Source: Polycladidibacter hongkongensis (GTDB lineage: Bacteria; Pseudomonadota; Alphaproteobacteria; Rhizobiales; Stappiaceae). Taken from it: DNA of 64,000 bases. Made by a program: the position numbers and the translations under genes. The DNA lies in assembly GCF_001561995.1 (NCBI RefSeq), contig NZ_LLWC01000022.1:248001-312000 (forward strand), in the 5' to 3' direction. The notes beneath the pieces were generated by a model. That model was given only the letters and a program-made list of their open reading frames with translations, was not told the origin of the DNA and did no database searches. Each line of letters begins with the position of its first letter. Position 1 is the stretch's first letter. Of the stretch, positions 20,045-36,533 are shown one piece after another.

Positions 20045-21211
20045 ATGAAAGTTGGAATTATTGGCCTCGGGGCCCGCATTGCCCATGTCGCGCACGAGTT
20101 TTACAAAACCGCGCCTGATCTGGAGTTTGTTGCCTACAGCGATCCTGCTCCGGCAGGGCAGAGTGTTTTGCAAAGTCAGCTAGGCAAGCCCCTACAGGGT
20201 TACGAAACCCCTCAGGAAATGTTTGCAGCTCACAAACTTGATCTTGTCCTGATCGGCTCTCCCAACTTCCTGCACTTAGAACATATAAAGGTGGCGCTGG
20301 AGTCCCCCACGCCCTACATCTTCACCGAAAAGCCGGTGATCATCTCCAAGGAAGAAACCTTCAAGCTCTTGGAGCTGATGGCAAAGCACAACGGCCTGAA
20401 ACGCCTGTTGATTGGATTGGTGCTTCGCTATTCGCCGCTATTCCGCCAAATTCGTGAGAGCCAAAACTCCGGTCAAATTGGCGACATTATCTCCATTGAG
20501 GCCGCCGAGCATATCGCACCCTATCATGGCTCGTTCTTCATGAAGGACTGGCGCCGCCACAGCAAGTATTCCGGCGGCTTCATGCTGGAAAAATGCTGCC
20601 ACGACCTCGACCTTTATCAAGGCATCATTGGCGCCCGCCCAATCAAATTGGCCAGCTTTGGTGGCAGGAAATTCTTCACGCCGCAGAACAAACCCGAAAA
20701 ACCACATCGCTTCCCAGCACCGGAATACCCTGATCGCGTTGATCCATTCACCCCGCGTTGGAATGGCAGCGAGGCCGACTTCGACAGCGATGGCGACCTG
20801 ATCGATTATCAAACCGCGCTTATCGAATATGAAGGCGGCGCGAACCTGTGCTTTCACACCAACATGGCAGTCGCCGACGAGTATCGCCGCTTTGCCATCA
20901 TTGGCACAAACGGCATGGCGGAAGGCGATTTCGTGCGCAACTACTATCGCGTGCATGACGCAATGACCTCTGAAGAGCTGGTTCATCTGGATGACTTGGG
21001 TGGCAATCGCAGCGGCCACTATGGCGCCGACAGCATGATGAGCGCCGATATTATCGCTTACATACGCGGCGAAGCAGATCTACCCGTCGGCATCATCGAT
21101 GCGCTGCAAGCAGGCCTCACCGCTCTCATGCTGGATGAAGCGAGGCACAGCAGCAGCGTCATCGATATGGCGCCAATCTGGCAGCAGTTCGACAGCTATA
21201 AACTGAGCTAA
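20045..21211 (+). CDS. Gfo/Idh/MocA-family NAD(P)-dependent oxidoreductase
   Basis: This 388-residue protein starts with a Rossmann motif (MKVGIIGLGARIAHVA). It carries the family's EKP (FTEKPVIISKEE, Lys for cofactor and substrate) and the catalytic region EKCCHDLDLYQGI with its Asp and His. The start at 20045 follows GGGGGA by 5 bases; an in-frame start 34 codons upstream would add a non-family leader. It is the first gene of a plus-strand operon, 14 bases before the first permease, so it probably acts on a sugar or polyol brought in by that transporter. The substrate is unknown. Confidence 0.85.
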   Translation: MKVGIIGLGARIAHVAHEFYKTAPDLEFVAYSDPAPAGQSVLQSQLGKPLQGYETPQEMFAAHKLDLVLIGSPNFLHLEHIKVALESPTPYIFTEKPVIISKEETFKLLELMAKHNGLKRLLIGLVLRYSPLFRQIRESQNSGQIGDIISIEAAEHIAPYHGSFFMKDWRRHSKYSGGFMLEKCCHDLDLYQGIIGARPIKLASFGGRKFFTPQNKPEKPHRFPAPEYPDRVDPFTPRWNGSEADFDSDGDLIDYQTALIEYEGGANLCFHTNMAVADEYRRFAIIGTNGMAEGDFVRNYYRVHDAMTSEELVHLDDLGGNRSGHYGADSMMSADIIAYIRGEADLPVGIIDALQAGLTALMLDEARHSSSVIDMAPIWQQFDSYKLS

Positions 21212-21225
21212 CCTACGGGGCCAAC

Positions 21226-22107
21226 ATGCCAAAGACGTTAAAACGCGACCTGTTTCCCTACCTCCTGTTGCTGCCAGCCATTGTGATCACGCTGGTTATT
21301 GTTGCATGGCCGCTGGTGGAAACCATTCGCCTCTCTTTCACCGACGCCTCGTTAAAGCCGACAGAAAACTACATTGGCTTTGCCAATTACGAGAAAATCT
21401 TTTCCCGGCGCTTTCCAGAGGTTATCGCCCGCACATTTTACTGGATGGCCCTCTCAGTCGCTCTGAAAATGCTGGTTGGAACCTTTGGCGCGGTGCTGTT
21501 AAACAGCGCAGTCCCCGGGCGCACGCTTGCCCGCATTCTTGTCATCCCGCCATGGGTCATTCCCATTGCAATTGGGGTGTTCATCTGGGGCTGGATGTAC
21601 AATGGCCAGTTCGGCATGATTTCCGGCCTGTTGCAGCGCTTTGAGATAATTGGCGGCCCACTGGAGTTTCTCGCCTACCGGGAAACAGCATTCCTTGCCA
21701 CCATCATCACCGATGTCTGGATCGGCACGCCCATGGTCACCATCTTCGTCCTTGCTGCCATGCAAGCGGTTCCGGGCGATCTTTATGAGGCTGCATGGGT
21801 AGATGGCGCAGGCCGGGGCTATCGCTTCCGTCGCATCACCTTGCCGCTCATCCTGCCAGCCATTGCCACCATGAGCTTGCTCTCGGCAATCTGGACGTTC
21901 AACTCCTTCGATATCATCTGGATTCTCACGGAAGGCGGCCCGCGCGGCGGCACCACCACTATGATTATCGACACCTACAAAACCGCAATCAGTCGCTTCA
22001 AATATGGCGAGGGCGCGGCCCGTGCGGTGATGATCGTCTGCATTTTGACGGCCTTCTCAGGTGCCTATTTCTATCTGATTTCCCGCTTCGCGAAAAAGGG
22101 AGCCTAA
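21226..22107 (+). CDS. ABC sugar-type transporter permease (MalF/UgpA-like)
   Basis: This 293-residue membrane protein has six TM segments. The EAA loop that contacts the ATPase is EAAWVDGAGRGYRFRRITLPLILPA (about residues 187-211). It belongs to carbohydrate uptake class 1 (CUT1) by its overall pattern (FPYLLLLPAIVITLVIVAWPLVETIRLSFTD). It pairs with the next gene to form the translocation pore. Confidence 0.92.
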   Translation: MPKTLKRDLFPYLLLLPAIVITLVIVAWPLVETIRLSFTDASLKPTENYIGFANYEKIFSRRFPEVIARTFYWMALSVALKMLVGTFGAVLLNSAVPGRTLARILVIPPWVIPIAIGVFIWGWMYNGQFGMISGLLQRFEIIGGPLEFLAYRETAFLATIITDVWIGTPMVTIFVLAAMQAVPGDLYEAAWVDGAGRGYRFRRITLPLILPAIATMSLLSAIWTFNSFDIIWILTEGGPRGGTTTMIIDTYKTAISRFKYGEGAARAVMIVCILTAFSGAYFYLISRFAKKGA

Positions 22108-22112
22108 ACGCT

Positions 22113-22955
22113 ATGATCAACAAGTATCGCTGGTGGGAATATGTTGCTATCTACGCAGGCCTTGCTGTTTTTCTGGGCTTTATTCTAGCCCCGTTCATCG
22201 AAGCCTTTGTCGTTTCGTTGCGTCCACTAAACGCGCTGTTCTCCATCCCCTATCAGTTCTTCACTGATGAGATGAGTTTCAGCGCCTACATCACCATGTG
22301 GCAGAACGTGCCGTTGCTCTGGCTCTATATGTTGAACTCGTTCTTCATCGCCGCCATGGTAACACTGTGCGGACTATGTGCCATCATTCCCGCCGCCTAT
22401 GCCTTCTCACGCTTTGAGTTTCGCGGCAAAAACACCCTGCTCGCTGCCTTTCTGGCCATTAATATGGTCTCCGGCGCCGTGCTTATTATCCCTCTTTTCA
22501 AAGTGATGCAGGAATTGGGCGTGCTCAACACCTACATCGCAATGATTGCTCCGGGCACAGCCTTTGTCATCCCCACCGGAATCTGGCTGCTGCGCTCCTA
22601 CCTGCTCAAAATCCCCAAGGAGTTGGAAGAGGCCGCTTGGGTAGATGGCGCTGGCCGCCTCTACACACTGCGCCGGGTTATTCTACCCATTGCCCTACCG
22701 GGCATCGTGGTGGTCTCCATTGCTACCTTTATTGCCGCCTATGCGCAGCAATTCATCTACGCATTGACGTTTAACAATAAAAACGAGCTGAACCCCCTCC
22801 CTGTCGGTTTGTTTCAGTTTTTTGGACGCCAAGAGGTCGTTTGGAACGAGCTCATGGCTGCCAGTTTGGTCGGCATCCTGCCGGTGCTGATCGTCTATGT
22901 CTTTCTGCAACGATACATTGTGGCTGGCCTGACAGCCGGTGCCGTTAAAGAATGA
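22113..22955 (+). CDS. ABC sugar-type transporter permease (MalG/UgpE-like)
   Basis: This 280-residue membrane protein has six TM segments and an EAA loop EEAAWVDGAGRLYTLRRVILPIALPG. I place the start at MINKYRWWEYV, 5 bases after the first permease's stop, so the two are coupled; the frame continues open upstream inside the first permease gene. It forms the second half of the CUT1 pore. Confidence 0.92.
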   Translation: MINKYRWWEYVAIYAGLAVFLGFILAPFIEAFVVSLRPLNALFSIPYQFFTDEMSFSAYITMWQNVPLLWLYMLNSFFIAAMVTLCGLCAIIPAAYAFSRFEFRGKNTLLAAFLAINMVSGAVLIIPLFKVMQELGVLNTYIAMIAPGTAFVIPTGIWLLRSYLLKIPKELEEAAWVDGAGRLYTLRRVILPIALPGIVVVSIATFIAAYAQQFIYALTFNNKNELNPLPVGLFQFFGRQEVVWNELMAASLVGILPVLIVYVFLQRYIVAGLTAGAVKE

Positions 22956-23003
22956 CCAAAAAAACAAAAAAACTTGAAAAATCACACTTCGGAGAACGTG
23001 AAC

Positions 23004-24209
23004 ATGCTTAAAAACATTCTATTGGGCACCGCGGTGCTCGCCGGTCTGTCCACTGCCGCTTTGGCTGAGGATACCCGAATTCACATGATTAACTGTGGCG
23101 ACAACAACGGCGATGGCATCAAGCTGCAAGACCAGCTCATCGCTGATTGGGAAAAAGCCAACCCCGGCTTCAAGGTCGATGTGGAGTTTGTGCCTTGGGG
23201 TCAGTGTCAAGAAAAGTCCACCACGCTCGCCTCTGCCGGTAGCCCTCCGGCAGTCGCCTACATGGGCTCCCGTACGCTAAAACAGCTTGCAGCCAACGAT
23301 CTCATCATTCCAGTGAGCATGAGCGATGCTGAAAAAGCCACCTACGCCGCGCCTATCCTTGCAACAGTGACCGCCAATGGCGAGCAATGGGGCCTACCGC
23401 GCGCCTTCTCGACCAAAGCCTACTACTGGAGCAAAGACCTGTTCAAAGCCGCAGGTCTGGACCCGGAAACTCCGCCTAAGACATGGGACGAGATGTACGA
23501 GGCCGCCAAGGCTATCAAGGAAAAAACCGATGCCGACGGCGTTGGCCTTGTGGCAGCTTCCTTTGACAACACCATGCACCAGTTTATGAACTACGTGTAC
23601 ACCAACGGCGGTGAAGTCATTAATGCTGATGGCGAGATTGTCTTTAACTCGCCAAACAACGTTGAAGCAATGGCGTTCTACGGTAAACTGGCAACAGTTT
23701 CCCAGCCCGGCCCAATTGCCTATGACCGCGGCAAGCTCTACCCGCTGTTCAACGAAGGCAAAATCGGCATGTTCATCTCAGGCCCATGGGAGCGTAAAAA
23801 GCTCACCGGCGATTGGGGCGTTGCTCCGATCCCTGTCGGTCCAAAAGGCACCCCGGGCACCCTGCTGATCACCGACTCTTTGGCCGTGTTTAAAGGCTCG
23901 GGCGTTGAGGCTCAGGCGCTTGATTTGGCAAAACTGCTCACCAACCCGGAAAACCAGATGGCCTTTGAGTTGGCAGAGGGTTACACCCCGCTGCGTGACA
24001 TGCCAGAAGTGAAAGGTTTGGTTGCCAAAGACGCCACCTGGTCTGCGTTCCTTGATGCGATCCCAACCGGTGGTCCAGAGCCATTTGTAACCGATTACGT
24101 CGCACTTCAGGACATCATCAACGAAGCAATTCAGGGCGTTGTTCTGGGTGAGGTCGATGCTGTCGCAGCTGTAGAAGAAGCTGCAGAGCGCCTCGAAGAC
24201 GCCAAGTAA
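23004..24209 (+). CDS. ABC transporter sugar-binding protein (family 1, MalE-like)
   Basis: This 401-residue periplasmic protein has a signal peptide (MLKNILLGTAVLAGLSTAALA, cleavage before EDTR). The mature part shows the family 1 fold (LIADWEKANPGFKVDVEFVPW, then GSPPAVAYMGSRTLKQLAANDLIIPV and FNEGKIGMFISGPWE). GGAGAA lies 7 bases before the chosen start. It decides the substrate range of the transporter. A disaccharide, amino-sugar or glycosylated compound fits the family, but specificity is not readable. Confidence 0.92.
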   Translation: MLKNILLGTAVLAGLSTAALAEDTRIHMINCGDNNGDGIKLQDQLIADWEKANPGFKVDVEFVPWGQCQEKSTTLASAGSPPAVAYMGSRTLKQLAANDLIIPVSMSDAEKATYAAPILATVTANGEQWGLPRAFSTKAYYWSKDLFKAAGLDPETPPKTWDEMYEAAKAIKEKTDADGVGLVAASFDNTMHQFMNYVYTNGGEVINADGEIVFNSPNNVEAMAFYGKLATVSQPGPIAYDRGKLYPLFNEGKIGMFISGPWERKKLTGDWGVAPIPVGPKGTPGTLLITDSLAVFKGSGVEAQALDLAKLLTNPENQMAFELAEGYTPLRDMPEVKGLVAKDATWSAFLDAIPTGGPEPFVTDYVALQDIINEAIQGVVLGEVDAVAAVEEAAERLEDAK

Positions 24210-24224
24210 GACGAACTGCAACAA

Positions 24225-24253
24225 GCCGGGTCCCATGTAGGGTGGGGCTCGGC
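24225..24253 (+). other. intercistronic hairpin between binding-protein and ATPase genes
   Basis: An 11-bp stem with two G-U pairs (24225-24235 with 24243-24253) lies just after the binding-protein stop and has no T-run. It probably stabilises the upstream message or lowers read-through into the ATPase gene. Confidence 0.5.
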
Positions 24254-24335
24254 ACATTTCCTGAATTAACAACATCAAGACGATAAGCACTCGCAATCCA
24301 CCAATTGCGGCCACCTGATACTTTAAGGGCACTCT

Positions 24336-25475
24336 ATGGGCAAGCTGCGCATTTCCAACCTTCACAAGAGCTTTGACAAGCTGGAAGTCATCAACAATGT
24401 CTCGCTGGAAGTAGAGCAAGGCGAGTTCATAGTCTTCGTTGGCCCCTCCGGCTGCGGCAAGTCCACGTTACTACGCATGATTGCCGGTCTGGAAGAGATC
24501 ACCAAGGGCGACATTGACATCGATGGCACCATAGTAAACGACCTGCCGCCAGTTAAGCGCAATATCTCCATGGTGTTTCAATCCTACGCGCTCTATCCGC
24601 ATATGAGCGTGTTCGAAAACATCGCTTTCCCATTGCGTGTCCAGAAACTCTCACAGGATGAAGTGACAAAGCGCGTCCACGCCGCCGCCGATATCCTGCA
24701 ACTGCACGAGCGCTTGCATCACAAGCCGGGCGAGCTTTCCGGCGGCCAACGTCAGCGCGTTGCCATTGGCCGCGCCATTGTACGCTCCCCTTCCGTTTTC
24801 CTGTTTGATGAGCCACTATCAAACCTTGATGCCGCACTGCGCGCCGAAATGCGCGTAGAACTGTCCAAGCTGCATGAGAAACTCGGCGCAACCATGATCT
24901 ACGTCACCCACGACCAGATTGAGGCCATGACCATGGCCGACAGGATCGTGGTTCTCAATGGCGGGGTAATCGCGCAAGTTGGCAGCCCGCTTGAGCTCTA
25001 TCACAAGCCCGCGAACGAATTCGTTGCCACCTTTATCGGCAATCCCAAAATGAACCTGATCCCGGTCACCTGTACCGAGGTTGGCGCGAACACCATCACC
25101 GTGAGCCTACCAGATGGCAACACAGCCACCCTCCCCATGCAAGGGGATGCCTCCCTCAAAGGCAGCACAATGAAACTGGGTATCCGCCCAGAGCACATGA
25201 GCCAAAGCGAGGGCGAAGTGGAAGTCTCGCTCACCCCTTATGTGGTTGAACGTCTGGGCATCCACACAGTCGCCTATGCCAGCCTCGCAGGTGTCGAAGG
25301 TTCGTTCTGCGCCCTTCTGCCCGGCGAAACCAGCGTTGCCAGCGGCAAAGCACAAACCCTCCGCTTTCAAGCCCAAAACTGTCACCTATTCACCAGCAAT
25401 GGAGAGGCCATTCCCCGCCAGATCCCGGATCACCTCATGTATCCGGTTGATCTGCCACAAATGGAGCCTGCATAA
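24336..25475 (+). CDS. ABC sugar transporter ATP-binding protein (UgpC/MsmK/MalK-like)
   Basis: This 379-residue ATPase has Walker A GPSGCGKST (36-44), the Q-loop FQSYALYPHMSV, signature LSGGQRQR and Walker B VFLFDEPLSNLD, then the H-loop VTHDQIEAMT. A C-terminal TOBE/regulatory domain (about residues 240-379, with GIRPEHM) is typical of MalK-type proteins. It energises the two permeases and ends the transport operon at a strong terminator. Confidence 0.95.
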   Translation: MGKLRISNLHKSFDKLEVINNVSLEVEQGEFIVFVGPSGCGKSTLLRMIAGLEEITKGDIDIDGTIVNDLPPVKRNISMVFQSYALYPHMSVFENIAFPLRVQKLSQDEVTKRVHAAADILQLHERLHHKPGELSGGQRQRVAIGRAIVRSPSVFLFDEPLSNLDAALRAEMRVELSKLHEKLGATMIYVTHDQIEAMTMADRIVVLNGGVIAQVGSPLELYHKPANEFVATFIGNPKMNLIPVTCTEVGANTITVSLPDGNTATLPMQGDASLKGSTMKLGIRPEHMSQSEGEVEVSLTPYVVERLGIHTVAYASLAGVEGSFCALLPGETSVASGKAQTLRFQAQNCHLFTSNGEAIPRQIPDHLMYPVDLPQMEPA

Positions 25476-25491
25476 ACACAGCAAACTAAAA

Positions 25492-25567: not shown

Positions 25568-26638
25568 CTACCAGACCTTACCGCGCGCCGCCACCGGCTC
25601 CACAGCGCTCACTACACCTTCGCGGTGAAACACCATCTGATCAAACAAATTGGAAATAACGCAGGTATGGTTTGGGATAATCTCCAGCACATCGCCAATC
25701 TCTGGCCGCTGCGCGCACGCCCCCATATCAATCACGCCATGTTCTTCACTCAGACTATGCACGCGCGCGCCCTCGTAGCCAACCACAAGGCCATAATCCT
25801 CAAACCCCAAGAGGTCAGAGGTCAACGCCTTTGACCCCGCATCGATCACCACCCGCTCAGCCGTTGGCCGCGAAACCACGCGCGCCAAAACTCGCATCGC
25901 ACAATCCTTGATATCGGCGTGCCCCATCTCCACCATTTTGCGATCATTGTAGATATAGGTGCCTGCCCGGTGTTCTGTGGCGCAAGTAAGCTTGTGTGCC
26001 TCAAACAGGCTGGGTGTACCACCAACCGTCACCGGCACATTCTCAATCCCCTCTTGTCGCAACAATTCAAGGCATTCTAGGAAAAACGCATCGACAGACC
26101 CTTCGCTATAGGCGGGCGGATAAGTCATCAAGCCGCCAAAACGCAAGCCCGGCGCATTCTGTATCTGCTGCACAAGCTCCCGCGCCTCTTGAGGGCTTTG
26201 TACGCCTGCACGCGCACCGCCAGTATCACACTCCACCAGCACACATAACGACGCCTCTTGCTCGAAAGTCTGTTGTAGCCCTGCCAGCACCACAGCATTG
26301 TCACAGGTCACGCTAAGCCCGCTAATCTGCGCATTAAGCCGCACCAGATCCGCCAATGCTTCCGCGCCAAGCACATTATATGTCAGCAAAATATCGTCAA
26401 AGCCCGCATCGGCAAAAACCTGCGCCTCGCTCACTTTCTGGCAATTGATGCCAACCGCACCAGCTGCGATCTGCTTTGCCGCGACCGCCGGGATCTTGTG
26501 AGTTTTTATATGCGGCCGAAAACGTCGGCCGATACGGTCCATATAGCTTTGCACACGGGTGATGTTATTTTCCATCACTTCCGCATCGATTACCGCAATT
26601 GGCGTGCGCAGCTGCGCCAGTTTCTGCCCAATCATCAT
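25568..26638 (-). CDS. type III PLP enzyme, D-threonine aldolase/D-serine dehydratase-like
   Basis: This 356-residue protein has the alanine-racemase-like TIM barrel with the PLP lysine in RPHIKTHK (about residues 42-49), a phosphate-binding GGTPS and a C-terminal metal-site motif PNHTCVISNLFD. These features fit the DSD1/D-threonine aldolase group. Members cleave beta-hydroxy-D-amino acids to glycine plus an aldehyde, or dehydrate D-serine-type substrates. The start overlaps the stop of the M81 gene (ATGA), so the two are coupled. That link suggests it acts on an amino acid released by the peptidase. The exact reaction cannot be fixed. Confidence 0.8.
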   Translation of the reverse strand: MMIGQKLAQLRTPIAVIDAEVMENNITRVQSYMDRIGRRFRPHIKTHKIPAVAAKQIAAGAVGINCQKVSEAQVFADAGFDDILLTYNVLGAEALADLVRLNAQISGLSVTCDNAVVLAGLQQTFEQEASLCVLVECDTGGARAGVQSPQEARELVQQIQNAPGLRFGGLMTYPPAYSEGSVDAFFLECLELLRQEGIENVPVTVGGTPSLFEAHKLTCATEHRAGTYIYNDRKMVEMGHADIKDCAMRVLARVVSRPTAERVVIDAGSKALTSDLLGFEDYGLVVGYEGARVHSLSEEHGVIDMGACAQRPEIGDVLEIIPNHTCVISNLFDQMVFHREGVVSAVEPVAARGKVW

Positions 26639-28113
26639 ACCACCTTGGCAACCAGCCGGTTCAAATTACGCGGCCAGATATCTTCCCGCACTTTCTTATA
26701 GTCTGTCACTCTTGGGTTATGCGGATAAGGCTGCCCCGCCGAACAATACAGAATGACATCGGCAATCTGCGCAAAGCTATGGTAGAAGTGATTGGTAGAT
26801 TTCACGATCAACACCGACATCTCTTCCGGCCGCACGCCCATAATCTCAAACAGGGAGCGGTCAAAGCATTGCGCCCGCGTCGAGTTTAAGATTACGTAGA
26901 TATCGCCAATGCGGATAAGACTGGCATCGCCAATCGGCGCATATCCATCGCCAAACCTCTGCTCCGCCTGCACCACATTGCGTAGCACCTCCACTTCGCC
27001 GTCAATCGGATCGCCGGTCAAAGGCGCTGATTTTGCACCAAAACGAAGCGCCAGTCGCGCGCCTTCACCAGCCGCATGGCAAATCTGTACCGCAATCGGA
27101 TCCCAGATAGAACCAACAGCTACATTCTTAAGCCCACGCTCCAGCGCATGTTGCAGCAAAATCGTGCCGTCCCCTGCGGTTCCACCTCCGGGATTGTCCC
27201 AGATATCGGCGATCACCACCGGCTTCTCGCCCTGTGCCACAACTGCTCGATCCAGCGCCTCGACTACACTCACCTCCGGGCTGCGCACCTTGCCGCGCAT
27301 CTCCCAGACCCGTAGGCCCAATTGCTCTGCCAGTGCATCACCATATGGCCGGTTTCCATCGGTAATCACCAGCATCTTTGTGCCCATATCAGGCACATCG
27401 CCCGCCATAAACCCGTGGATCAGGCTTGCCGAGATTACTGTATCATCCACGCGCTCCAACTCATAAAGATCGTCAACGAACTGGCGCATAGGCTGCCGTG
27501 ATGTGGGGAACACATCAATCATTCTGCAATCGTAAACACTCATCACCGGCTTGACACCTCGGCACAACATGCCCTCCGCCAACCGCCAGATATCGGCCGC
27601 CCGCTCTACATAATCAACGTGTGGAAACTCCTTAAACGCAATCAAAGCATCCAGATTGGCAACCCGCTTTGCACTCAAATGACTGTGCGGGTCAGTTGTT
27701 GCGATCACCGGCACATCAGGTCCGACAATTGCGCGGACTTTTTCAAGGAAATCTCCCTCAGGATCATCATAACCTTCGGCAATCATCGCCCCATGCAGGC
27801 CCAGCACAACCATATCAAGTGGCCCGGCGCATTGCAGCTGCACCAGAATTTCATCCCTAAGCAACTCATAGGTTTCACGCGCCACCAAACCCGCCGGATC
27901 GGCCCATGCCGCCGTCCCTTCGATAAGGTCCCAGCCCAGCCGTCTGCACACGTCCCGCCCCACAGGGATAACCGCAGAGCACAAGGTAGGCGTGTCAGGG
28001 TGCTCCCCCGGCCGCGCCAGCAAGGAGGCCTCAAAGGCACGCAAATCGATGCGAATTGGCGAAAAACTGTTGGTCTCGGTCGCCAACACAGCACAGAAAA
28101 TGCGACGGGCCAT
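26635..28113 (-). CDS. M81-family (MlrC-like) metallopeptidase, copy A
   Basis: This 492-residue protein has the MlrC layout: an N-terminal DUF1485-type domain opening with ATETNSFSP (Glu13) and a C-terminal MlrC_C domain with ADIWDNPGGGTAGDGT. Candidate zinc ligands are Asp141 and His143 (TDPHSHLS) and His165 (EFPHVD). MlrC itself cleaves linearised microcystin peptides, but most relatives have unknown amide substrates. The gene sits between the PLP enzyme (4-base overlap) and an NTF2-like gene. It is only distantly similar to the second M81 protein of this island. Confidence 0.82.
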   Translation of the reverse strand: MARRIFCAVLATETNSFSPIRIDLRAFEASLLARPGEHPDTPTLCSAVIPVGRDVCRRLGWDLIEGTAAWADPAGLVARETYELLRDEILVQLQCAGPLDMVVLGLHGAMIAEGYDDPEGDFLEKVRAIVGPDVPVIATTDPHSHLSAKRVANLDALIAFKEFPHVDYVERAADIWRLAEGMLCRGVKPVMSVYDCRMIDVFPTSRQPMRQFVDDLYELERVDDTVISASLIHGFMAGDVPDMGTKMLVITDGNRPYGDALAEQLGLRVWEMRGKVRSPEVSVVEALDRAVVAQGEKPVVIADIWDNPGGGTAGDGTILLQHALERGLKNVAVGSIWDPIAVQICHAAGEGARLALRFGAKSAPLTGDPIDGEVEVLRNVVQAEQRFGDGYAPIGDASLIRIGDIYVILNSTRAQCFDRSLFEIMGVRPEEMSVLIVKSTNHFYHSFAQIADVILYCSAGQPYPHNPRVTDYKKVREDIWPRNLNRLVAKVV

Positions 28114-28636: not shown

Positions 28637-28725
28637 ATGAAATTCATTTTCATTTTGCGTTGAAATCCATCAAAAACTATGTGTAAATAACGATAGTGTC
28701 AAACCAAAAAGAAATGAATTTTCAT
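28637..28725. promoter_or_regulatory. divergent promoter region with paired ATGAA/TTCAT inverted repeats
   Basis: ATGAA-A-TTCAT (28637-28647) abuts the minus-strand operon start, and ATGAA-TT-TTCAT (28714-28725) lies 21 bases before the RidA gene. They lie 77 bases apart (start to start), about seven helical turns. RpiR-family operators often have GAAA/TTTC half-sites, so these are candidate sites for the RpiR protein encoded in this island. Confidence 0.5.
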
Positions 28726-28745: not shown

Positions 28746-29129
28746 ATGACAATTAAGCGATATGGTGTCGAAAAAGCAGGCGCGGGTGGCCAAAACCTGC
28801 CATTTGCTAGAGCGGTAGAGGCCGACGGCTGGCTGCACGTATCAGGGCAGGTCGCCATGAAGGACGGCGAAATTGTCGGTACAGGGATTGTTGAGCAAAC
28901 CCATCTCACCATCAAAAATATTATCGCGATTCTTGAAGAAGCAGGCTACGGTCTGGAAGATGTTGTGCGCATCGGTGTCTGGCTCGACGACCCGCGCGAT
29001 TTTTGGTCCTTTAATGGTGTATACAAAAGTTACTTTGGTGAGCATCCTCCGGCACGCGCCTGCGTCCAGTCTTCCATGATGGTGGATTGCAAAGTCGAGA
29101 TGGATTGCATCGCCTATAAAAAGAAATAG
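28746..29129 (+). CDS. RidA/YjgF-family enamine/imine deaminase
   Basis: This 127-residue protein has the RidA fold (LPFARAVEADGWLHVSGQVA, VEQTHLTIKNIIAILEEAGYGLEDVVRIGVWLDD, PPARACVQSSMMVDCKVEMDCIAYK). The arginine in ARACVQ is the family's substrate-carboxylate contact. RidA proteins hydrolyse reactive enamines and imines released by PLP enzymes. This one lies beside a PLP enzyme gene and probably clears its intermediates, or carries a pathway deamination. AAGGAA precedes the start, and the gene is 7 bases ahead of the RpiR gene. Confidence 0.9.
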   Translation: MTIKRYGVEKAGAGGQNLPFARAVEADGWLHVSGQVAMKDGEIVGTGIVEQTHLTIKNIIAILEEAGYGLEDVVRIGVWLDDPRDFWSFNGVYKSYFGEHPPARACVQSSMMVDCKVEMDCIAYKKK

Positions 29130-29136
29130 GCAGCGC

Positions 29137-30003
29137 ATGAAAGATATTTTTGCAGTCTTAAAAAAGGTAGAAACAGAGCTTTCCAAATCGGAACAGGCAA
29201 TCGCAAAGCTGCTCTATGACCACGCTGAATTTGCAGTAAGCGCGTCGATAACCGAGCTGGCCCAACGGGCCAACGTCTCTGCGCCAACAGTCACACGCTT
29301 TTGTCGGCGCCTTGGCTGTGACAGCTACTCTGATTTTAAGGTTCAGCTGGCAAGCGCGGTCTTTGCCGGTGAGCGTTTTCTGCGCTCTGAGAGCAAAAGT
29401 ATCGCCCCCGATGATATTGCGGACGATCTATTTTCCAAAGCCCGTGCGGCGATGAACCTCGCCCGCGAGCAACTTGATCTAAATATCCTAGATGAAGCCG
29501 CAAGAGCGATCGCCAGTGCGGGCACAGTCGCTGCCTTTGGCTCTGGCGGTGCCTCGAATTGGGTGACCGAAGAAATGCGCCTGCGGCTTTTCCGGCTGGG
29601 GATCAAGGCGGTTGCTGTGCACGACCATATATTGCAGGTCATGCACGCTGCAACTCTGGACATGAACGACGTGCTGATTGTCTCTTCCTTTTCGGGGGGC
29701 AACACCGAGCTGATCCGCGCCATGGAAGCAGCAAGGGACTATGGCGCAACAATCATCGCATTCACCCGCCCGAGCCGCCCTGTAGCCCGTGCGGCGGATC
29801 TTGTCATTGGCATCGACCTAGAAGAGGGTACCAACATTTTACGCCCCACTTCTGCCCGCTATGCCTATCTGCTCACCCTAGATATTCTCGCCACCCGCGT
29901 TGCTATGCTTAAAGAGGACAGCGCCCGCGAAGTTCTGCGCCGTATCAAATTGCAATTGGTCAACCGGCGCGGCAGCGATGATAAGGAGCCCCTTGGTGAC
30001 TAA
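29137..30003 (+). CDS. RpiR/MurR-family transcriptional regulator
   Basis: This 288-residue regulator has an N-terminal HTH_6 domain (about residues 1-77, with ASITELAQRANVSAPTVTRFCRRLGCDSYSDFKVQLA) and a C-terminal SIS sugar-phosphate-binding domain (about 120-255, with AFGSGGASNWVTEEMRLRLFRLG and ALTRPS-like region FTRPSRPVARAAD). Regulators of this kind sense phosphosugars or amino-sugar phosphates. It lies in the operon beginning with ridA and is the likely regulator of the whole island. Its stop overlaps the SDR gene start. Confidence 0.92.
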   Translation: MKDIFAVLKKVETELSKSEQAIAKLLYDHAEFAVSASITELAQRANVSAPTVTRFCRRLGCDSYSDFKVQLASAVFAGERFLRSESKSIAPDDIADDLFSKARAAMNLAREQLDLNILDEAARAIASAGTVAAFGSGGASNWVTEEMRLRLFRLGIKAVAVHDHILQVMHAATLDMNDVLIVSSFSGGNTELIRAMEAARDYGATIIAFTRPSRPVARAADLVIGIDLEEGTNILRPTSARYAYLLTLDILATRVAMLKEDSAREVLRRIKLQLVNRRGSDDKEPLGD

Positions 30004-30790
30004 CCCCAGCACAAATGCCATTGCCATCATCACTGGCGCAGCAGGCGATATTGGCCGCGCCATCGCCGCCGCCCTCACTTCTGACTATCACCTAGCTCTG
30101 GTTGATATTGATGCAGATGCCTTGGAAGGGGCTGGCAAAACCCTTGCCACGCAAGGGGCTAAGCTTTCGCTCCATCGCTGTGATCTCACCTGTCCTGCCG
30201 ATCTGACAGCGCTTAAAGAACAACTCGCCCCTCTAGGGCGCGTCTCGCTTCTTGTGAACAATGCCGGCGCTGCCGCTGCGCTATCCCTACAAGAACTTAC
30301 AGCAGAACAACTACGCCAAGATCTGGCACTAAATCTCGAAGCGGCCACCAACATCTTCAAAACCTTTGAGGATGATCTCAAACAAGGCGGCAACCTGATC
30401 AACATTGCCTCGGTCAATGGCATGGCCGTTTTTGGCCATCCGGCGTACTCCATGGCGAAGGCTGGCCTAATTCACTTCACCCGCCTTGTTGCCACCGAGT
30501 ATGGCAAATACGGGCTGCGCGCCAACACAGTCGCGCCGGGTACGGTGCGCACACAAGCATGGAATGCCCGCGCCGCCGCCAATCCGAAAGTCTTTGAAGA
30601 AGCCGCCTACTGGTACCCGCTTGGCCGGGTCGCAGAGCCAGAGGATGTCGCCAATGCAGTGGCATTCCTCGCCAGCCCGGCAGCAAATGCCATCACCGGC
30701 GTTTGCCTGCCCGTCGATTGCGGCTTAACCAGCGGCCCCAGCCCTTTGCCGCACACCTTTACCCAAAGTGCAGACTACGCACCACTTTAA
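29996..30790 (+). CDS. short-chain dehydrogenase/reductase
   Basis: This 264-residue classical SDR has a cofactor-binding TGAAGDIGRAIA near residues 13-24, NNAGA, and the catalytic Ser and Tyr-x3-Lys in INIASVNGMAVFGHPAYSMAKAG. I take a GTG start because AAGGAG lies 7 bases before it, which makes the gene overlap the RpiR stop by 8 bases. Its substrate is probably a sugar, polyol or hydroxy acid of the same pathway. The C-terminal family motif FLASPAANAITGVCLPVDCG is present. Confidence 0.88.
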   Translation: MTNPSTNAIAIITGAAGDIGRAIAAALTSDYHLALVDIDADALEGAGKTLATQGAKLSLHRCDLTCPADLTALKEQLAPLGRVSLLVNNAGAAAALSLQELTAEQLRQDLALNLEAATNIFKTFEDDLKQGGNLINIASVNGMAVFGHPAYSMAKAGLIHFTRLVATEYGKYGLRANTVAPGTVRTQAWNARAAANPKVFEEAAYWYPLGRVAEPEDVANAVAFLASPAANAITGVCLPVDCGLTSGPSPLPHTFTQSADYAPL

Positions 30791-30970
30791 CCCCCCGTTC
30801 GCGCAAAAACAAAAATGTTTTAGGCACGGCCATAACGATAAAAACACCTCGCCAAGCCCACACGAAACTAGGTCAGTGCCGGCCTGTAGCTGGCCTGCCC
30901 TCAATGGTCTTGCGGGGAAGAACAGCTGTCCCCGCCTTTTCGGGAGGCTCTGCATTTGCAGAGAAACAGC

Positions 30971-32899
30971 ATGTCATCATCTCAATTGCACCTGAGCGCT
31001 TATTTGGCGGCGAACACGCCCGCCCCGTGCCTAACACTCACATTGCACAACCACGGGCAAACCAGCATCACCTTTCGCGAGCTGGCCTTTACCTCCATTA
31101 TCATCATGGCAGCGGATGCCTCGCTCAGCTGCGGTGTACTGGCAGAAACTTTCGGCAGCTTTCACCGCATAGAGTTCCCGCAGGCGCAACACCTTGCCGC
31201 AGGTGATGCCTTGACCATCACCGCAACAGGGCTCTCAGTGCTTGCCCGCCACAAGCTGGATGGGCCACAAGGCGCCTACCTCTCCAGCCCCACCGGCCAG
31301 CGCATGCCTCTTATCTGCGCCGATTTGCAAAGCGATCTTGATAGCAATCAAGGCAGCCGCGGTACCGCCCCGCGCTCTTACCCGCAGGGCACGACATCAT
31401 CGCCCGCTGGCCTTTTACCTTGGCCAAACCATATCGAGATAACGGCATGGCACAAGGCCCCGCCCTCTCTGGCACTTGCCCAAACCGCGACACCTGCCCA
31501 GCGCGCGCAGATCGCCGCAATTAACGCCCTCGTACAGCGCCTCTATCCAGCAGCGCCGCAGCCATTTTCCACCAGCCAGCAGCAAGCAGCCATAGCGCTC
31601 GACTGCATGCAAGCCAACGATCTTGCCGCTGAAGCCTACCAGCTAAGTTTTGCAGCCAACGCTGTCACCTTGAGCTACGGCGCGGATCAAGGCTTGCGCC
31701 ATGGCCTCATGGCCCTTGCCCAGCTCAGCACCACCGCCTTTTTGGATAGCGCGCGCTTCGCCTTTCCCCAAACAGGCACAATTGCCGACAGTCCCCGCTT
31801 TGCATGGCGCGGCTGCCATCTGGATGTGGTGCGCCATTTCTGGCAGCTTGATGATGTCCTGCGCTTTATGGACATTCTCAGCTGGCACCGCATGAACATC
31901 CTCCACTTGCACTTGACGGAGGACGAAGGCTGGCGGATCGAGCTGAAATCCCTGCCCGAGTTGACAGAACAAGTTGCCTTCCGCGGCGCAGATTGTGCCC
32001 TGCCCCCGTTGTTTGGCTCGAGCCCGCAGCCCTATGGTGGATACTATACGCAAGCTGACATTGCTGCCATGAACGCCCACGCGCTAAGCCTTGGCATCAC
32101 CATTGTGCCGGAAGTCGACATCCCCGGCCACATGACAGCAGTGCTCGCCACCTATCCCCATTTGAAGGATCCAGATGAACCTGCTGATAGCTATCGCTCC
32201 ATCCAGAATTATCCCAATAATGCGCTAAACCCGGCAATGGACGAAACCTATGAGCTGCTGGAAACCGTGTTTAGCGAGTTGGCCGAACTGTTCCCCGGCC
32301 GCTATTTGCATCTTGGCGGCGATGAGGTCGATGCCAAGTCGTGGCATGCCTCGCCCAAAGCACAAGCGCTTGCCAAGCAACTCGGCAACACTGACACCAT
32401 GGGGTTGCAAGCGCACCTGCTGCGCAAAGCACAAGCCATAATCGAGGGATTAGGCCGCACAACCGCTGGCTGGGACGAAGCAGCACTTGGCGGTGGCATT
32501 AGCACAGACAACACCCTCTTGGTGGCATGGCGCAGCCCGCAAACGATCAACACTCTGCTCAAGCAAGGTTATGATGTGGTCGCCTCACCGGGACAAGCTT
32601 ACTATCTGGATATGGTGCAAAGCGACAACTGGCAGGAGCCGGGCATGAGCTGGGCAGGCGTGGCCACCATCGAAACTTGCTATACCTTCGAACCAAGCGC
32701 TGGACTAGACCCCGCGCATCTGCATAAACTCAAAGGCATTCAAGGGGGCATCTGGTGTGAACACATTCCAAACCAGCATCAGTTCAACTACATGGTCTTT
32801 CCCCGCCTGAGCGCCATCGCCGAAAGCGCATGGACGCAAAGCGAACACAAAGACCTGCAGCGCTTTTATGCCCTTAGCCGCCTCATGCCGCAATTGTAA
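30971..32899 (+). CDS. beta-N-acetylhexosaminidase (GH20 family)
   Basis: This GH20 enzyme has about 642 residues. After an N-terminal domain (to about residue 260) the TIM barrel begins at DSPRFAWRGCHLDVVRHFWQ. The catalytic Asp-Glu pair lies in YLHLGGDEVDAKSW near residue 450; GH20 uses the substrate N-acetyl group with this pair. Other family features are HLHLTEDEGWRIE, EVDIPGHMTA and GIQGGIWCEH. I see no signal peptide, so it should act in the cytoplasm on an imported, short GlcNAc- or GalNAc-terminated compound. A TTG start 5 codons upstream with GGGAGG before it is an alternative. It is 180 bases after the SDR. Confidence 0.9.
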   Translation: MSSSQLHLSAYLAANTPAPCLTLTLHNHGQTSITFRELAFTSIIIMAADASLSCGVLAETFGSFHRIEFPQAQHLAAGDALTITATGLSVLARHKLDGPQGAYLSSPTGQRMPLICADLQSDLDSNQGSRGTAPRSYPQGTTSSPAGLLPWPNHIEITAWHKAPPSLALAQTATPAQRAQIAAINALVQRLYPAAPQPFSTSQQQAAIALDCMQANDLAAEAYQLSFAANAVTLSYGADQGLRHGLMALAQLSTTAFLDSARFAFPQTGTIADSPRFAWRGCHLDVVRHFWQLDDVLRFMDILSWHRMNILHLHLTEDEGWRIELKSLPELTEQVAFRGADCALPPLFGSSPQPYGGYYTQADIAAMNAHALSLGITIVPEVDIPGHMTAVLATYPHLKDPDEPADSYRSIQNYPNNALNPAMDETYELLETVFSELAELFPGRYLHLGGDEVDAKSWHASPKAQALAKQLGNTDTMGLQAHLLRKAQAIIEGLGRTTAGWDEAALGGGISTDNTLLVAWRSPQTINTLLKQGYDVVASPGQAYYLDMVQSDNWQEPGMSWAGVATIETCYTFEPSAGLDPAHLHKLKGIQGGIWCEHIPNQHQFNYMVFPRLSAIAESAWTQSEHKDLQRFYALSRLMPQL

Positions 32900-32934
32900 T
32901 CGCGGCAGAGCAAATAAAACAAGGAAGCACAGCC

Positions 32935-34422
32935 ATGCGCATCGCCTTTGGCGGCCTGCATACAGAATGCAGCACGTACTCACAGCAAATCCAGCATTGG
33001 CAGGATTTCACCATCGCCGCAGGCGAAGCGCTGGCACACCAACACGCCCCCTTGTTTGCCGCGCATCCGCAGGCAGAGCCTGTGCCATTATTCCACGCCC
33101 GCTCCATACCCGGCGGGCCAGTGCATCGGCCCACCTATGAGGGCATGAAACACAAGTTCTTGAAAGCTCTGGGCGCCGCCACCCCCGTGGATGGTGTGTT
33201 GCTGCTTATGCATGGCGCCGTGGTCACCCCCGGTCTTGCAGATGCAGAAGGCGACTGGATCTCTGCTGTTCGTGCTGTGGTTGGCGATCACACCCCCATA
33301 GCGCTCGCCTACGATCTGCATGGCAATGTCACCCAGCAGGTGATTGACAATATCGACATATTCGCCGCCTACCGCACCGCCCCGCATATTGATACTGACA
33401 CAACCCGCGCCCGCGCGCTAGACATGCTGGTGCGCACCATCAAAGGCGATATCAAACCCTTTGTCGGCTGGGCCCCTGTGCCTGTCCTACTGCCCGGCGA
33501 GCGCACCTCCACCGAAGATGACCCCTGCGCCAGCCTCTACGCGACCTTGCCGAAAATAGACAAAACACCCGGCGTGGAAGACGCCAACCTGATGATTGGC
33601 TATGTCTGGGCAGATGAAGCCCGCGCCACCGCCTGCGCCGTGGTCACCGCCACCGACAACACCGCCTGCCGCACCGCTGTCAGCCAGATCGCACAAAGCT
33701 ATTGGCAAGCCCGAGAGGCTTGTTGCTTTCGCGTCACAACAGATACGCTAGACGCGCTTTTGCCGCAGATAAAAGCCGCACTTGCAGAAAACACAGGCCA
33801 AAGTGGCCCGCTCATTCTCGCAGATAGCGGCGACAACCCCACCGGCGGCGGCGTTGGCGATCGCTCAGATGTACTTGCCGCCTTCCTGCGCGAGGGGTTG
33901 CGCGGCGCCGTCTTTGCGGGGATTTCCTGTGCCACCGCACTGCCTAAGCTAATGGCTATGGAGACCGGCGCCACCTGCCAAATTGAGGTTGGTGCGGCCT
34001 TGGGAAGTTGCTCGCCTCTGCTGCGAGCATCTGCTACGCTTCTTGCCAAATCCGGCAACGCTGCAGCGGCAAAAGATCAAGCTGTCCTTGTTGAGATTGC
34101 AGGCAACCGGGTTATTCTGACAGCAGACCGGCGCCCCTTCCATAACCTGCGCGATTTTGAAGCCTTTGGCATCACCCCCGCAGATGAGCGCTGTTTGGTG
34201 GTCAAATCCGGTTATCTCTCGCCTCAGCTGGCCCCATTGGCAAGCCCCGCCCTCATGGCGCTCACCGACGGCGCGGTGAACCAGAGCATCACCACTCTGC
34301 CAAACACCAAACGAACCATGCCCGCCTACCCATTTGCCAAAGAATTCCAATGGGAGCCTGAGGCCAAGCTCTCCTCCAGAGCCTTTCAGATGGAGCTCGA
34401 TCTAGAGCTAGGCACTCCTTGA
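32935..34422 (+). CDS. M81-family (MlrC-like) metallopeptidase, copy B
   Basis: This 495-residue protein shares the M81 layout but is highly diverged from copy A. It opens with MRIAFGGLHTECSTYS (Glu11). Probable zinc ligands are the Asp and His of AYDLHGNVT and the His of YRTAPHIDTD. The C-terminal domain has LILADSGDNPTGGGVGDRSD. It follows the GH20 gene by 35 bases in the same operon. It probably hydrolyses an amide bond in the intermediate produced by the glycosidase, but its substrate is unknown. The differing motifs of the two copies suggest different substrates. Confidence 0.85.
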   Translation: MRIAFGGLHTECSTYSQQIQHWQDFTIAAGEALAHQHAPLFAAHPQAEPVPLFHARSIPGGPVHRPTYEGMKHKFLKALGAATPVDGVLLLMHGAVVTPGLADAEGDWISAVRAVVGDHTPIALAYDLHGNVTQQVIDNIDIFAAYRTAPHIDTDTTRARALDMLVRTIKGDIKPFVGWAPVPVLLPGERTSTEDDPCASLYATLPKIDKTPGVEDANLMIGYVWADEARATACAVVTATDNTACRTAVSQIAQSYWQAREACCFRVTTDTLDALLPQIKAALAENTGQSGPLILADSGDNPTGGGVGDRSDVLAAFLREGLRGAVFAGISCATALPKLMAMETGATCQIEVGAALGSCSPLLRASATLLAKSGNAAAAKDQAVLVEIAGNRVILTADRRPFHNLRDFEAFGITPADERCLVVKSGYLSPQLAPLASPALMALTDGAVNQSITTLPNTKRTMPAYPFAKEFQWEPEAKLSSRAFQMELDLELGTP

Positions 34423-34645: not shown

Positions 34646-35611
34646 ATGCTTATAAACCAAAGCGCCCCGCCCGGGGCCAAAATCGCAGTTATCGGCGCAA
34701 TCCATCTGGATCGCATTGCCCATGCTGTTGTTCCAATACTACAAGATACCTCCACACCCGGCAGTATCGAGCCCAAGCCCGGTGGCGTTGCCACCAACAT
34801 CTCTCGGGCTCTTGCGCGCTTGCAACAAGCTCCGGCCTTAATCGGCTGCCTTGGAGCAGATGCAGATGGCCGCTTCCTGATGGAAAACCTTGCCCAATCC
34901 GGCGTAGATACCGCAGGTATCAATATGCTGGAGGACCAGCGCACCGGCTCCTATCTTGCTCTGCATCAGCCAGATGGCGAGCTCTTCGCCGCTATTGCTG
35001 ATAGCGAGATAACCGCAAGCATCCCGCTGCCTAGCCAGCATCACCTGCCGGCTAAATTGCAAGACGCGCAAATCTGGCTATGCGAAACCAATCTGGAGCC
35101 AAGCTACCTGCAGGCCCTTGCCGCGTGTAAGGGGAAACGCCTGTTGGCAGCTGATACGGTTTCCATCGCCAAAGCGCCTCGCTTGCGACCACTTCTGCCC
35201 TATCTGGATCTCCTGTTCACCAACAAGGCCGAGGCCGCAGCTCTACTTGATCTGCCGCAGGAAACAGGGACAGAAGAGCTCGCCAGCACGCTTGCCGCCA
35301 AAGGCTGTGGTACCGTTGCCATCACCAACAGCAGCAAACCGCTCACGCTTTATGCAGCTGGTCAATTGAGCAACTTACCGGTGCTGCCCGCAAATATCGT
35401 TGATGTAACAGGTGCGGGTGATGCGTTCATCGCCGGGTTTCTTGCCGCTTTTGCCAGCGATAACAAGGACCCGCACCGCGCCGCCTACCATGGCCTTACA
35501 GCCTCGGCCATTGCCGTGGAGGCCACAGGTGCCGCACCCACCAGCTTATCGCAGGACGCCATTCAAAAGCGCCTCGCCGACCACATCTCCACCTTGGAAC
35601 AATCCCTATAA
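34646..35611 (+). CDS. psuK: PfkB-family carbohydrate kinase, probable pseudouridine kinase
   Basis: This 321-residue ribokinase-family enzyme opens with IAVIGAIHLDRIAHA, has KPGGVATNISRALARL near residue 50, and the catalytic-Asp motif DVTGAGDAFIAGFLAAF near residue 253. It is 19 bases ahead of psuG, and the PsuK/PsuG pairing is well known: PsuK phosphorylates pseudouridine at the 5' position. The symbol rests on that neighbour; a kinase for another sugar cannot be excluded. A 223-base gap separates it from M81 copy B, so it may have its own promoter. Confidence 0.82.
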   Translation: MLINQSAPPGAKIAVIGAIHLDRIAHAVVPILQDTSTPGSIEPKPGGVATNISRALARLQQAPALIGCLGADADGRFLMENLAQSGVDTAGINMLEDQRTGSYLALHQPDGELFAAIADSEITASIPLPSQHHLPAKLQDAQIWLCETNLEPSYLQALAACKGKRLLAADTVSIAKAPRLRPLLPYLDLLFTNKAEAAALLDLPQETGTEELASTLAAKGCGTVAITNSSKPLTLYAAGQLSNLPVLPANIVDVTGAGDAFIAGFLAAFASDNKDPHRAAYHGLTASAIAVEATGAAPTSLSQDAIQKRLADHISTLEQSL

Positions 35612-35630
35612 AACGCCCCGGAGCAAAACA

Positions 35631-36533
35631 ATGAAAATCGAATACTCCAAAGAAGTCGCAGAAGCACTGGCCAGCGGTTCCCCTGTTGTCGCACTGGAAT
35701 CCACCATTATCACCCATGGCATGCCCTATCCGCAAAACGTAGAGACCGCTCGCGAGGTAGAGCAGCTCATCCGCGACAATGGCGCCGTACCTGCCACCAT
35801 CGCAGTACTAAAAGGCCAGCTGCATGTAGGCCTGGAAGATGCTGAACTTGAAGAGCTGGCACAGGCAAAAGACGTGATGAAATGCTCACGCGCTGATCTT
35901 ACCTTCGCCATCGCCATGGGCCGCTATGGCTCCACCACTGTTGCTGCAACCATGATGGCCGCTCATGCAGCCGGTATCCGTGTGTTTGCGACTGGTGGGA
36001 TCGGCGGCGTTCACCGCGACGCGGAAGAAAGCTTCGACATCTCTGCCGATCTGGATGAACTTAGCCGCACGCCGGTATGCGTTATCGCAGCAGGTGCCAA
36101 GGCGCTTCTGGACCTGCCAAAAACCATGGAGGTTTTGGAGACGCGCGGCGTGCCGGTCATCTCCTACGGTGTGGATGAGCTACCCGCATTCTGGTCCCGC
36201 ACAAGCGGAATCAAAGCACCGACCCGCCTCGATAGCGCGGCGGACATTGCCAAGCTTCTTAAAGCACGCGGCGAATTCGGTGGCCACGGCGGTGAGCTGA
36301 TCGCAAACCCGGTCCCGCAAGAAGACGAGATTCCAGCGGAAGAAATGATCGGCTTTATCGAAGCTTCCCTCAAGGCTGCAGAAGAAAAAGGCATCAAAGC
36401 AAAAGAGGTTACCCCGTTTATCCTCGGCCACATCTTCAAAATCACCAAAGGGCGTTCCCTTGTCACCAATATCGCACTGGTGAAAAATAATGCCCGTTTG
36501 GCCGCACAAATCGCAAGTGAGTACACCCGCTAG
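35631..36533 (+). CDS. psuG: pseudouridine-5'-phosphate glycosidase
   Basis: This 300-residue enzyme matches PsuG along its full length. The catalytic residues are present: Glu in VALESTIITHGMPYPQN, Lys in VMKCSRADL and the Schiff-base Lys in IAAGAKALLD. ATGGIGGVHR and FDISADLDEL are family-typical. It cleaves the C-C glycosidic bond of pseudouridine 5'-phosphate to uracil and ribose 5-phosphate. CGGAG lies 7 bases before the start chosen; the frame is open upstream inside the kinase gene. With the kinase it makes a complete pseudouridine salvage unit. Confidence 0.95.
   Translation: MKIEYSKEVAEALASGSPVVALESTIITHGMPYPQNVETAREVEQLIRDNGAVPATIAVLKGQLHVGLEDAELEELAQAKDVMKCSRADLTFAIAMGRYGSTTVAATMMAAHAAGIRVFATGGIGGVHRDAEESFDISADLDELSRTPVCVIAAGAKALLDLPKTMEVLETRGVPVISYGVDELPAFWSRTSGIKAPTRLDSAADIAKLLKARGEFGGHGGELIANPVPQEDEIPAEEMIGFIEASLKAAEEKGIKAKEVTPFILGHIFKITKGRSLVTNIALVKNNARLAAQIASEYTR

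Follow-up and report, generated by a model that had tools for sequence, protein, structure and literature searches.

Which substrate is handled by a locus that unites a sugar importer, a beta-N-acetylhexosaminidase, two metallohydrolases of the M81 family, to which the microcystinase MlrC belongs, and a pyridoxal phosphate (PLP) enzyme resembling D-threonine aldolase (DTA)? We studied such a locus at positions 20045 to 34422 of a 64,000-nucleotide stretch of Polycladidibacter hongkongensis DNA (contig NZ_LLWC01000022.1, positions 248,001 to 312,000 of the forward strand; hereafter the window, in which all coordinates are given). A sequence-only reading had suggested that the middle genes of this region form one pathway. 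The genes are co-conserved among relatives, and the segment that carries them has boundaries other than those first drawn. With modest confidence, we favor a catabolic regulon for a chitin-derived disaccharide of N-acetylglucosamine (GlcNAc) that would carry, or be converted to, N-acetyl-D-glucosaminate (GlcNAc1A), leading on to 2-keto-3-deoxygluconate (KDG). The conserved set, roughly 13 alphaproteobacterial genes, has the appearance of another route for oxidized amino sugars from chitin, one that was assembled independently.

Conservation and regulation of the gene set

A scan of 84,980 species genomes returned 429 relatives of the first M81 gene (M81a), of which the best 80 were kept as named loci. 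Counts out of 69 refer to the named loci with both 10-kb flanks, the 11 of 80 without full flanks being excluded. Genes in relatives were called by tblastn plus a codon-usage score, which missed some (the amidohydrolase of locus L212 and the RidA of locus L223), and per-gene identity and coverage thresholds were applied to the locus counts. Beside M81a, all six core partners (the DTA-like enzyme, an NTF2-like protein, RidA, an RpiR regulator, an SDR dehydrogenase and GH20) were present in 48/69 loci, and at least five were present in 63/69. At the same thresholds, none of 20 control loci (two of them shorter than 10 kb), which carry distant paralogues of M81 and come from related genomes, held any core partner; at a looser 60 bits, only M81, Dpp proteins and, via Dpp ATPases, the MsmK ATPase found matches there. 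Devosia-type loci keep the gene set in an order reshuffled relative to Roseibium/Rhizobium loci. This neighborhood comparison, which had been proposed along with the single-pathway idea, shows that the genes do not rarely co-occur, and the idea is supported by this strong co-occurrence and by a shared operator-like palindrome.

The locus consists of two blocks. The first, on the plus strand (20045-25475), runs from a Gfo/Idh/MocA oxidoreductase (Gfo; 20045..21211, in 64/69 loci) through two CUT1 ATP-binding cassette (ABC) permeases (21226..22107 and 22113..22955, each in 61/69) and a CUT1 solute-binding protein with an N-terminal signal peptide by eye (22974..24209, 61/69) to an MsmK/UgpC-type ABC ATPase (24336..25475, 62/69). 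The second is a divergent pair centered at about 28.7 kb and running to 34422. Its minus-strand arm comprises the NTF2/cystatin-fold protein (28139..28636, conserved in 63/69), M81a (26635..28113, the anchor gene of the locus counts) and the DTA-like fold-III PLP enzyme (25568..26638, 60/69). Its plus-strand arm comprises RidA (28746..29129, 63/69), a MurR/RpiR-family regulator (29137..30003, 67/69), the SDR dehydrogenase (29978..30790, 66/69), GH20 beta-N-acetylhexosaminidase (30956..32899, 64/69) and a second M81 hydrolase, M81b (32935..34422, 36/69). All genes on the initial list were confirmed as present and open at their coordinates, with catalytic residues that are intact and invariant in aligned relatives. 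The divergent pair had also been seen; RidA, as a correction, heads its plus operon, and the NTF2-like gene had been missed.

Accessory genes were less frequent: MFS in 24 of the 69 loci, CutC in 21, GntR in 17, NagB-II in 14, NagA in 12, ROK in 11, MurQ in 6, and PsuK and PsuG in none. CutC, named for copper handling, stands beside a ROK kinase and Gfo in the amino-sugar loci L025, L029 and L221. In another genome (L201; G035:C1:507000-526900), DTA lies beside NagB-II, NagA and ROK, and the genome's only M81 match is a short remnant (E 4e-5); this is apparently a decaying copy of the locus.

The palindrome ATGAAAN5TTTCAT, allowing up to two mismatches, occurs in the NTF2/RidA intergenic region of 45/49 loci, the window included (20 shuffles: mean 1.25, maximum 4 loci), and within 200 bases upstream of Gfo in 41/70 loci (shuffles: mean 1.15, maximum 3). 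Both promoters carry it in 30/43 loci. The motif was picked out in the sequences upstream of Gfo before both sets, each including the window, were tested for it; the controls were shuffled two-base blocks and other gap lengths. In the divergent set, a gap of 4 scored 33/49, and gaps of 3, 6 and 7 scored 0, 4 and 0. The divergent promoter of the window (28637..28725) holds one site without mismatches (28637-28653) and one with a single mismatch (28709-28725). No other site in the 64 kb has fewer than two mismatches, and these two both fall inside the 109-base NTF2/RidA gap. A weak copy with three mismatches lies upstream of Gfo (19972..19988). Nine Roseibium-type loci (L023-L032) also have best Gfo-upstream sites with 3 to 5 mismatches; CutC precedes Gfo in several of them, so that Gfo is not the first gene there. 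Since the palindrome is common to the divergent promoter and the region upstream of Gfo, the two blocks look like one regulon. The sites are predicted operators of the cluster's RpiR protein (nearest NCBIfam model HexR, below cut-off), which would control both blocks.

Candidate enzymes and the proposed route to KDG

The closest described counterpart that we compared is the ong cluster for oxidative chitin utilization, experimentally defined in Pseudoalteromonas prydzensis ACAM 620. According to the available part of its description (PMC9537276), the GH20 enzyme OngA frees GlcNAc1A, D-aminoacylase-like OngB deacetylates it, the fold-III PLP enzyme OngC converts the resulting D-glucosaminate (GlcN1A) to KDG and ammonia, and KdgK phosphorylates KDG; OngR is an RpiR protein and OngD a RidA protein (role unknown there). 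The same part of the source has OngC accepting D-Ser and D-Thr and reports ong with lpmo for Gammaproteobacteria and one betaproteobacterium (PMC9537276). By family, our locus shares with ong, as described there, the union of GH20, MurR/RpiR, RidA, a fold-III PLP enzyme (D-Ser deaminase/D-Thr aldolase kin) and an amide hydrolase in one cluster, and some of its relatives with tripartite ATP-independent periplasmic (TRAP) importers also have a KDG-kinase-like gene. It differs in having M81a in OngB's place (no amidohydrolase was found among the locus proteins scanned), a CUT1 ABC importer instead of TonB receptors and SSS, a GH20 without an apparent signal peptide, and the extra Gfo, SDR, NTF2-like and M81b genes; it has no in-locus KDG kinase, and no lytic polysaccharide monooxygenase (LPMO) was found in 25 genomes searched. 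The earlier statement that no described pathway has this gene set must therefore be narrowed: ong, in that partial description, has GH20, RpiR, RidA, a PLP deaminase, an amide hydrolase and KDG kinase, but a D-aminoacylase where M81 stands here (PMC9537276).

The DTA-like enzyme has Ala_racemase_N and D-ser_dehydrat domains and a conserved lysine motif, H-I-K-T-H-K. The H-x-C versus H-x-D metal pair tells eliminases from aldolases. The aligned D-threonine aldolases 4v15, 7dib and 6qkb have H-x-D, whereas the DTA-like enzyme has H324-x-C326, invariant in 77/77 rows, and so shares its metal site with D-threo-3-hydroxyaspartate dehydratase 3wqc. Its overall sequence is nonetheless nearest to 4v15 among solved structures. 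The initial label "D-threonine-aldolase-like" needs correction as to the metal site, and the name D-threonine aldolase was rejected because H-x-C replaces H-x-D in all rows. On account of its metal site we take the enzyme to be a dehydratase, predicted to act on D-glucosaminate in an OngC-like role.

M81a and M81b both contain DUF1485 and MlrC_C domains, as expected of M81 family members, and are the only M81 genes in their genome. In an alignment to MlrC (7ylq; reference zinc residues Glu56/His150/Asp184/His186/His208, mapped by eye with a chain offset of 17), M81a shares all five zinc-site residues (E13, H107, D141, H143 and H165; invariant in 95/95 rows). The metal residues of M81b, also read by eye, are E11, H93, D127, H129 and H151 (invariant in 37/37 rows). 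Both differ from MlrC in failing the microcystinase model NF041767 (cut-off 999), with 370 bits for M81a and 111 bits for M81b. The Glu of the Adda-Glu amide is in the D form. This amide is the bond cleaved by MlrC, the characterized M81 enzyme (PMC12474180). M81a would be an N-acetyl-D-glucosaminate deacetylase, the new step of the proposed pathway. A literature search on the M81 gene set, glucosaminate dehydratase, N-acetylglucosaminate and cog3964 deacetylases found nothing useful, and M81 is absent from the available portion of the main text of PMC12017989. The control M81 paralogue loci (L163-L182) match Dpp-type peptide ABC transport (DppA-like in 20/20, DppB-like in 19/20), which suggests a second, peptide-linked M81 branch.

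We next consider the importers. The census covered 132 loci, of which four duplicates (identical DTA DNA) were dropped and 86 distinct ones held DTA and RidA: 60 with a CUT1 importer, 7 with TRAP, 3 with Dpp and 16 with no recognized importer within reach. SDR was present in 60/60 CUT1 loci and in 13/16 loci without an importer, as against 0/7 TRAP and 0/3 Dpp loci (SDR-family genes at 26-34% identity some kilobases off in L128, L129 and L132 fell under the identity/coverage threshold and were not counted). GH20 was present in 56/60 CUT1 loci. The distribution of KDG kinase was different, with 4/7 TRAP loci and none of the CUT1 (0/60), Dpp (0/3) and importerless (0/16) loci. In these four (L132, L145, L146 and L224), a PfkB kinase whose best NCBIfam model is KDG kinase (two subfamilies) stands beside M81a, DTA, RidA, RpiR and the TRAP importer. 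L224, on the 110-kb plasmid pP11_c of Phaeobacter gallaeciensis P11, is a compact RpiR / TRAP-M81-DTA-sugar kinase-RidA cassette at 34-42 kb of the record. Three loci found by DTA anchoring (L212, L215 and L220) have DTA, RidA and RpiR without M81a and instead encode an "amidohydrolase/deacetylase family metallohydrolase"; the L215 and L220 proteins score 413 and 419 bits on NF006689 (cut-off 371) and share 53% and 73% identity with the L212 protein. Across the 86 loci, M81a was present in 80, the amidohydrolase in 3, both in none and neither in 3. Together, the H-x-C site, the KDG-kinase neighbors and the swap of M81a for an amidohydrolase suggest that an amide hydrolase supplies a dehydratase that forms KDG.

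In the pathway that we propose, the CUT1 importer would take up the disaccharide and GH20 would release GlcNAc from it inside the cell. The D456-E457 pair of GH20 is invariant in 75/75 rows, and among solved structures the beta-N-acetylglucosaminidase Nag2 (6ezr) is closest to this enzyme; no signal peptide is apparent by eye, and we therefore take it as cytoplasmic, its activity being assigned by family. The freed GlcNAc would pass to a GlcNAc kinase, NagA and NagB-II. A BadF-type kinase (by eye), GntR, NagB-II and NagA lie together elsewhere in the genome (contig C1, ~530-534 kb), and GlcNAc genes (GntR, NagB-II, NagA and ROK) stand next to the cluster in some relatives, which we count in favor of the pathway. 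M81a would hydrolyze the acetamide of GlcNAc1A to D-glucosaminate and acetate. By analogy with OngC and OngD, the DTA-like enzyme would then eliminate water, and RidA (R104 invariant in 80/80 rows), a predicted enamine/imine hydrolase, would yield KDG and ammonia. A KDG kinase hidden in loci of the main type was rejected, as none was found; phosphorylation would fall to a KDG-kinase-like enzyme encoded elsewhere, with aldol cleavage following, and the genome has two such genes, on contigs C6 and C10, the former adjoining a fructuronate-reductase-like gene. Gfo, SDR, the NTF2-like protein and M81b may carry out further steps on the same substrate. The genome also has one GH18 match (59.4 bits, over cut-off). 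The substrate first suggested was an amino-sugar conjugate carrying an amide-linked beta-hydroxy-D-amino acid. That chemistry was close: GlcNAc1A is itself an N-acylated beta-hydroxy-D-amino acid, so one molecule probably accounts for both the "amino sugar" and the "D-amino acid".

Evidence against the pathway and alternative explanations

Several observations weigh against this pathway. The 80 named loci, being the best of 429 matches, share descent and hence are not independent. No partner reached our thresholds at 13 further loci (L131, L133-L136, L139 and L148-L154) whose M81 homologues show 32-47% identity, which restricts the association to the M81a branch, at about 50% identity or above. 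Of the nine TRAP loci with M81a, three (L137, near its contig end, L138 and L147) show no DTA, kinase, or RidA above 31%, which indicates that M81a can live without DTA; L147 comes from the same genus as the kinase-bearing L145 and L146. On pSymB of Sinorhizobium meliloti 2011 (L223), M81a, M81b, GH20, SDR, RpiR, RidA and CUT1 occur with no DTA within 10 kb. Three loci, L210, L213 (cut after GH20) and L218, yielded neither M81a nor the amidohydrolase, and in Octadecabacter an M81 gene (39%) has behind it an amidohydrolase-family gene whose match covers 62 residues only, so the two are not strictly exclusive across all M81. KDG kinase is absent from the window locus as it is from the distinct CUT1 loci; the four TRAP-linked kinases (174.8, 294, 300.4 and 172.3 bits) are below the curated cut-off of 400 each, and L145 and L146 share one genus. 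The conserved Gfo, SDR, NTF2-like and M81b genes have no place in the proposed order of steps, and MurQ adjoins the cluster in 6/80 named loci and in Qingshengfaniella. Finally, LPMO_10 (AA10) was found in 0/25 genomes (21 with M81a-type loci, including that of P. hongkongensis, and 4 congeners without). An LPMO was therefore rejected as the source of GlcNAc1A, so that either others must supply this acid or it must arise by internal oxidation.

Internal oxidation leads to one version of the oxidized-chitin pathway, an LPMO-independent and non-phosphorylative form that we regard as a tentative possibility. Here, SDR or Gfo would oxidize imported neutral GlcNAc or chitobiose at C1 inside the cell, the NTF2-like protein or M81b might act as the lactonase that opens the product to GlcNAc1A, M81a would deacetylate it, and dehydration would give KDG. 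The presence of SDR in all CUT1 loci and in no TRAP or Dpp locus, together with the lack of an LPMO in the 25 genomes, speaks for an oxidation that only the loci with sugar importers require. SDR may oxidize the imported neutral sugar at C1, or it may replace the kinase by acting on KDG. In sequence, Gfo is nearest among solved proteins to the NAD+-dependent sulfoquinovosidase FlSqgA (8qc2), of a type described, in the available part of PMC10755693, as an NAD+-dependent glycosidase. Because Gfo is also found with CUT1 and GH20 at two loci that lack M81 (L124 and L127, from other genomes of the class), it is not specific to the acid route. The NTF2-like protein has no Pfam or NCBIfam match; its AlphaFold model (mean predicted local distance difference test score, 94.5) is NTF2/ketosteroid-isomerase-like with a cystatin-like fold, and its best structural match is 3d9r (E 1.7e-6; TM-score 0.53 by query length).

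A module for N-acyl-D-amino acids, in which M81a, DTA and RidA would degrade N-acyl-D-serine, -D-threonine or -D-hydroxyaspartate and the sugar genes would be mere linked neighbors, strikes us as unlikely. It would account for the M81a-DTA-RidA-RpiR sets beside Dpp-type peptide importers (L128 and L129), and it agrees with MlrC acting on a peptide and with the D-Ser and D-Thr activity of OngC in the available part of PMC9537276. Some TRAP-M81a loci lack DTA, which we also count in its favor. The KDG-kinase-like genes of the TRAP loci with DTA and RidA, however, have no role in the conversion of D-serine to pyruvate, and the frequency of GH20 and SDR in CUT1 loci ties the module to amino sugars.

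Peptidoglycan salvage, in which GlcNAc-N-acetylmuramic acid (MurNAc) or a small muropeptide would be imported, GH20 would remove GlcNAc, the M81 enzymes would cut stem-peptide amides or the acetamide, and RpiR would act as MurR, appears quite unlikely. RpiR proteins do include MurR, and besides the MurQ neighbors counted above, Gfo is preceded by MurQ, ROK and CutC in Qingshengfaniella alkalisoli and three Roseibium-group genomes (G038, G058 and G042). MurQ nevertheless has no match in the P. hongkongensis genome at E 1e-15 and is absent from 10/18 genomes with the M81a-CUT1 cluster (24 were searched; the other six all have one), on which grounds general MurNAc catabolism was rejected. An aldonic acid also suits the TRAP loci with KDG-kinase-like genes better than a muropeptide does. 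To our knowledge, peptidoglycan stem peptides normally contain no beta-hydroxy-D-amino acid, and their composition would thus offer a DTA/DSD-type eliminase no such substrate. Some lineages may use MurNAc in addition.

We consider it very unlikely that the locus is a pair of unrelated systems, one made of a chitobiose importer with GH20 and the other handling D-amino acids, that stay neighbors by chance or as a selfish cluster: the GlcNAc/chitobiose-type loci L124 and L127 (with NagB-II and GntR or NagA) do share CUT1, Gfo and GH20 homologues with ours and differ in having no M81, DTA, RidA, RpiR or NTF2-like match called, but the joint set survives re-ordering between Devosia-type and Roseibium/Rhizobium loci and its two blocks have the palindrome in common.

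Boundaries of the inserted segment and wider meaning

The island had first been drawn at 20045-36533, and comparison with congeners moves the insertion to ~6999-34645. In all five same-genus genomes compared (G001, G002, G008, G010 and G012; psuK itself was called in four), psuKG adjoins recA and has a lipoprotein gene on its other side. The window has the end of recA at 6998 and the start of psuK only at 34646, which makes psuKG backbone. The intervening segment of ~27.6 kb was inserted here or lost by the other congeners, and M81a had a match in 0/15 same-genus genomes sampled. No GC signature of the island is visible, and the window contains no tRNA, at the island ends or elsewhere. PsuK/PsuG were near the cluster in 0/80 named loci and, being recA adjacent in the congeners, were rejected as part of the system; they are an independent neighbor, as the sequence-only reading had allowed.

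Besides the studied locus, the recA-psuK segment holds a second set of genes at 7415-19538: two proline-racemase-like genes, an FAD oxidase, a DapA-like gene, a TRAP transporter, an aldehyde dehydrogenase, GntR and LysR. By eye (the aldehyde dehydrogenase and LysR were also scanned), it resembles a 4-hydroxyproline catabolic locus. Outside the segment, two tandem flagellin genes (61747-63971) have C-terminal ends that are near-identical by eye.

Whether other deacetylases act on GlcNAc1A is an open point of the ong work, raised for Aeromonas in the available part of PMC11653859, and the M81a proposal makes it testable on one purified protein. If the internal-oxidation form is true, M81/MlrC enzymes would at root be aldonate/D-amino-acid deacylases, with microcystinase arising from them. 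If the oxidized-chitin pathway is true, the M81/MlrC family, whose name is tied chiefly to the degradation of microcystin, would gain an ordinary substrate, and oxidized-chitin catabolism would extend from Gammaproteobacteria to Alphaproteobacteria (Roseibium, Rhizobium, Devosia and Phaeobacter) with a non-homologous deacetylase.

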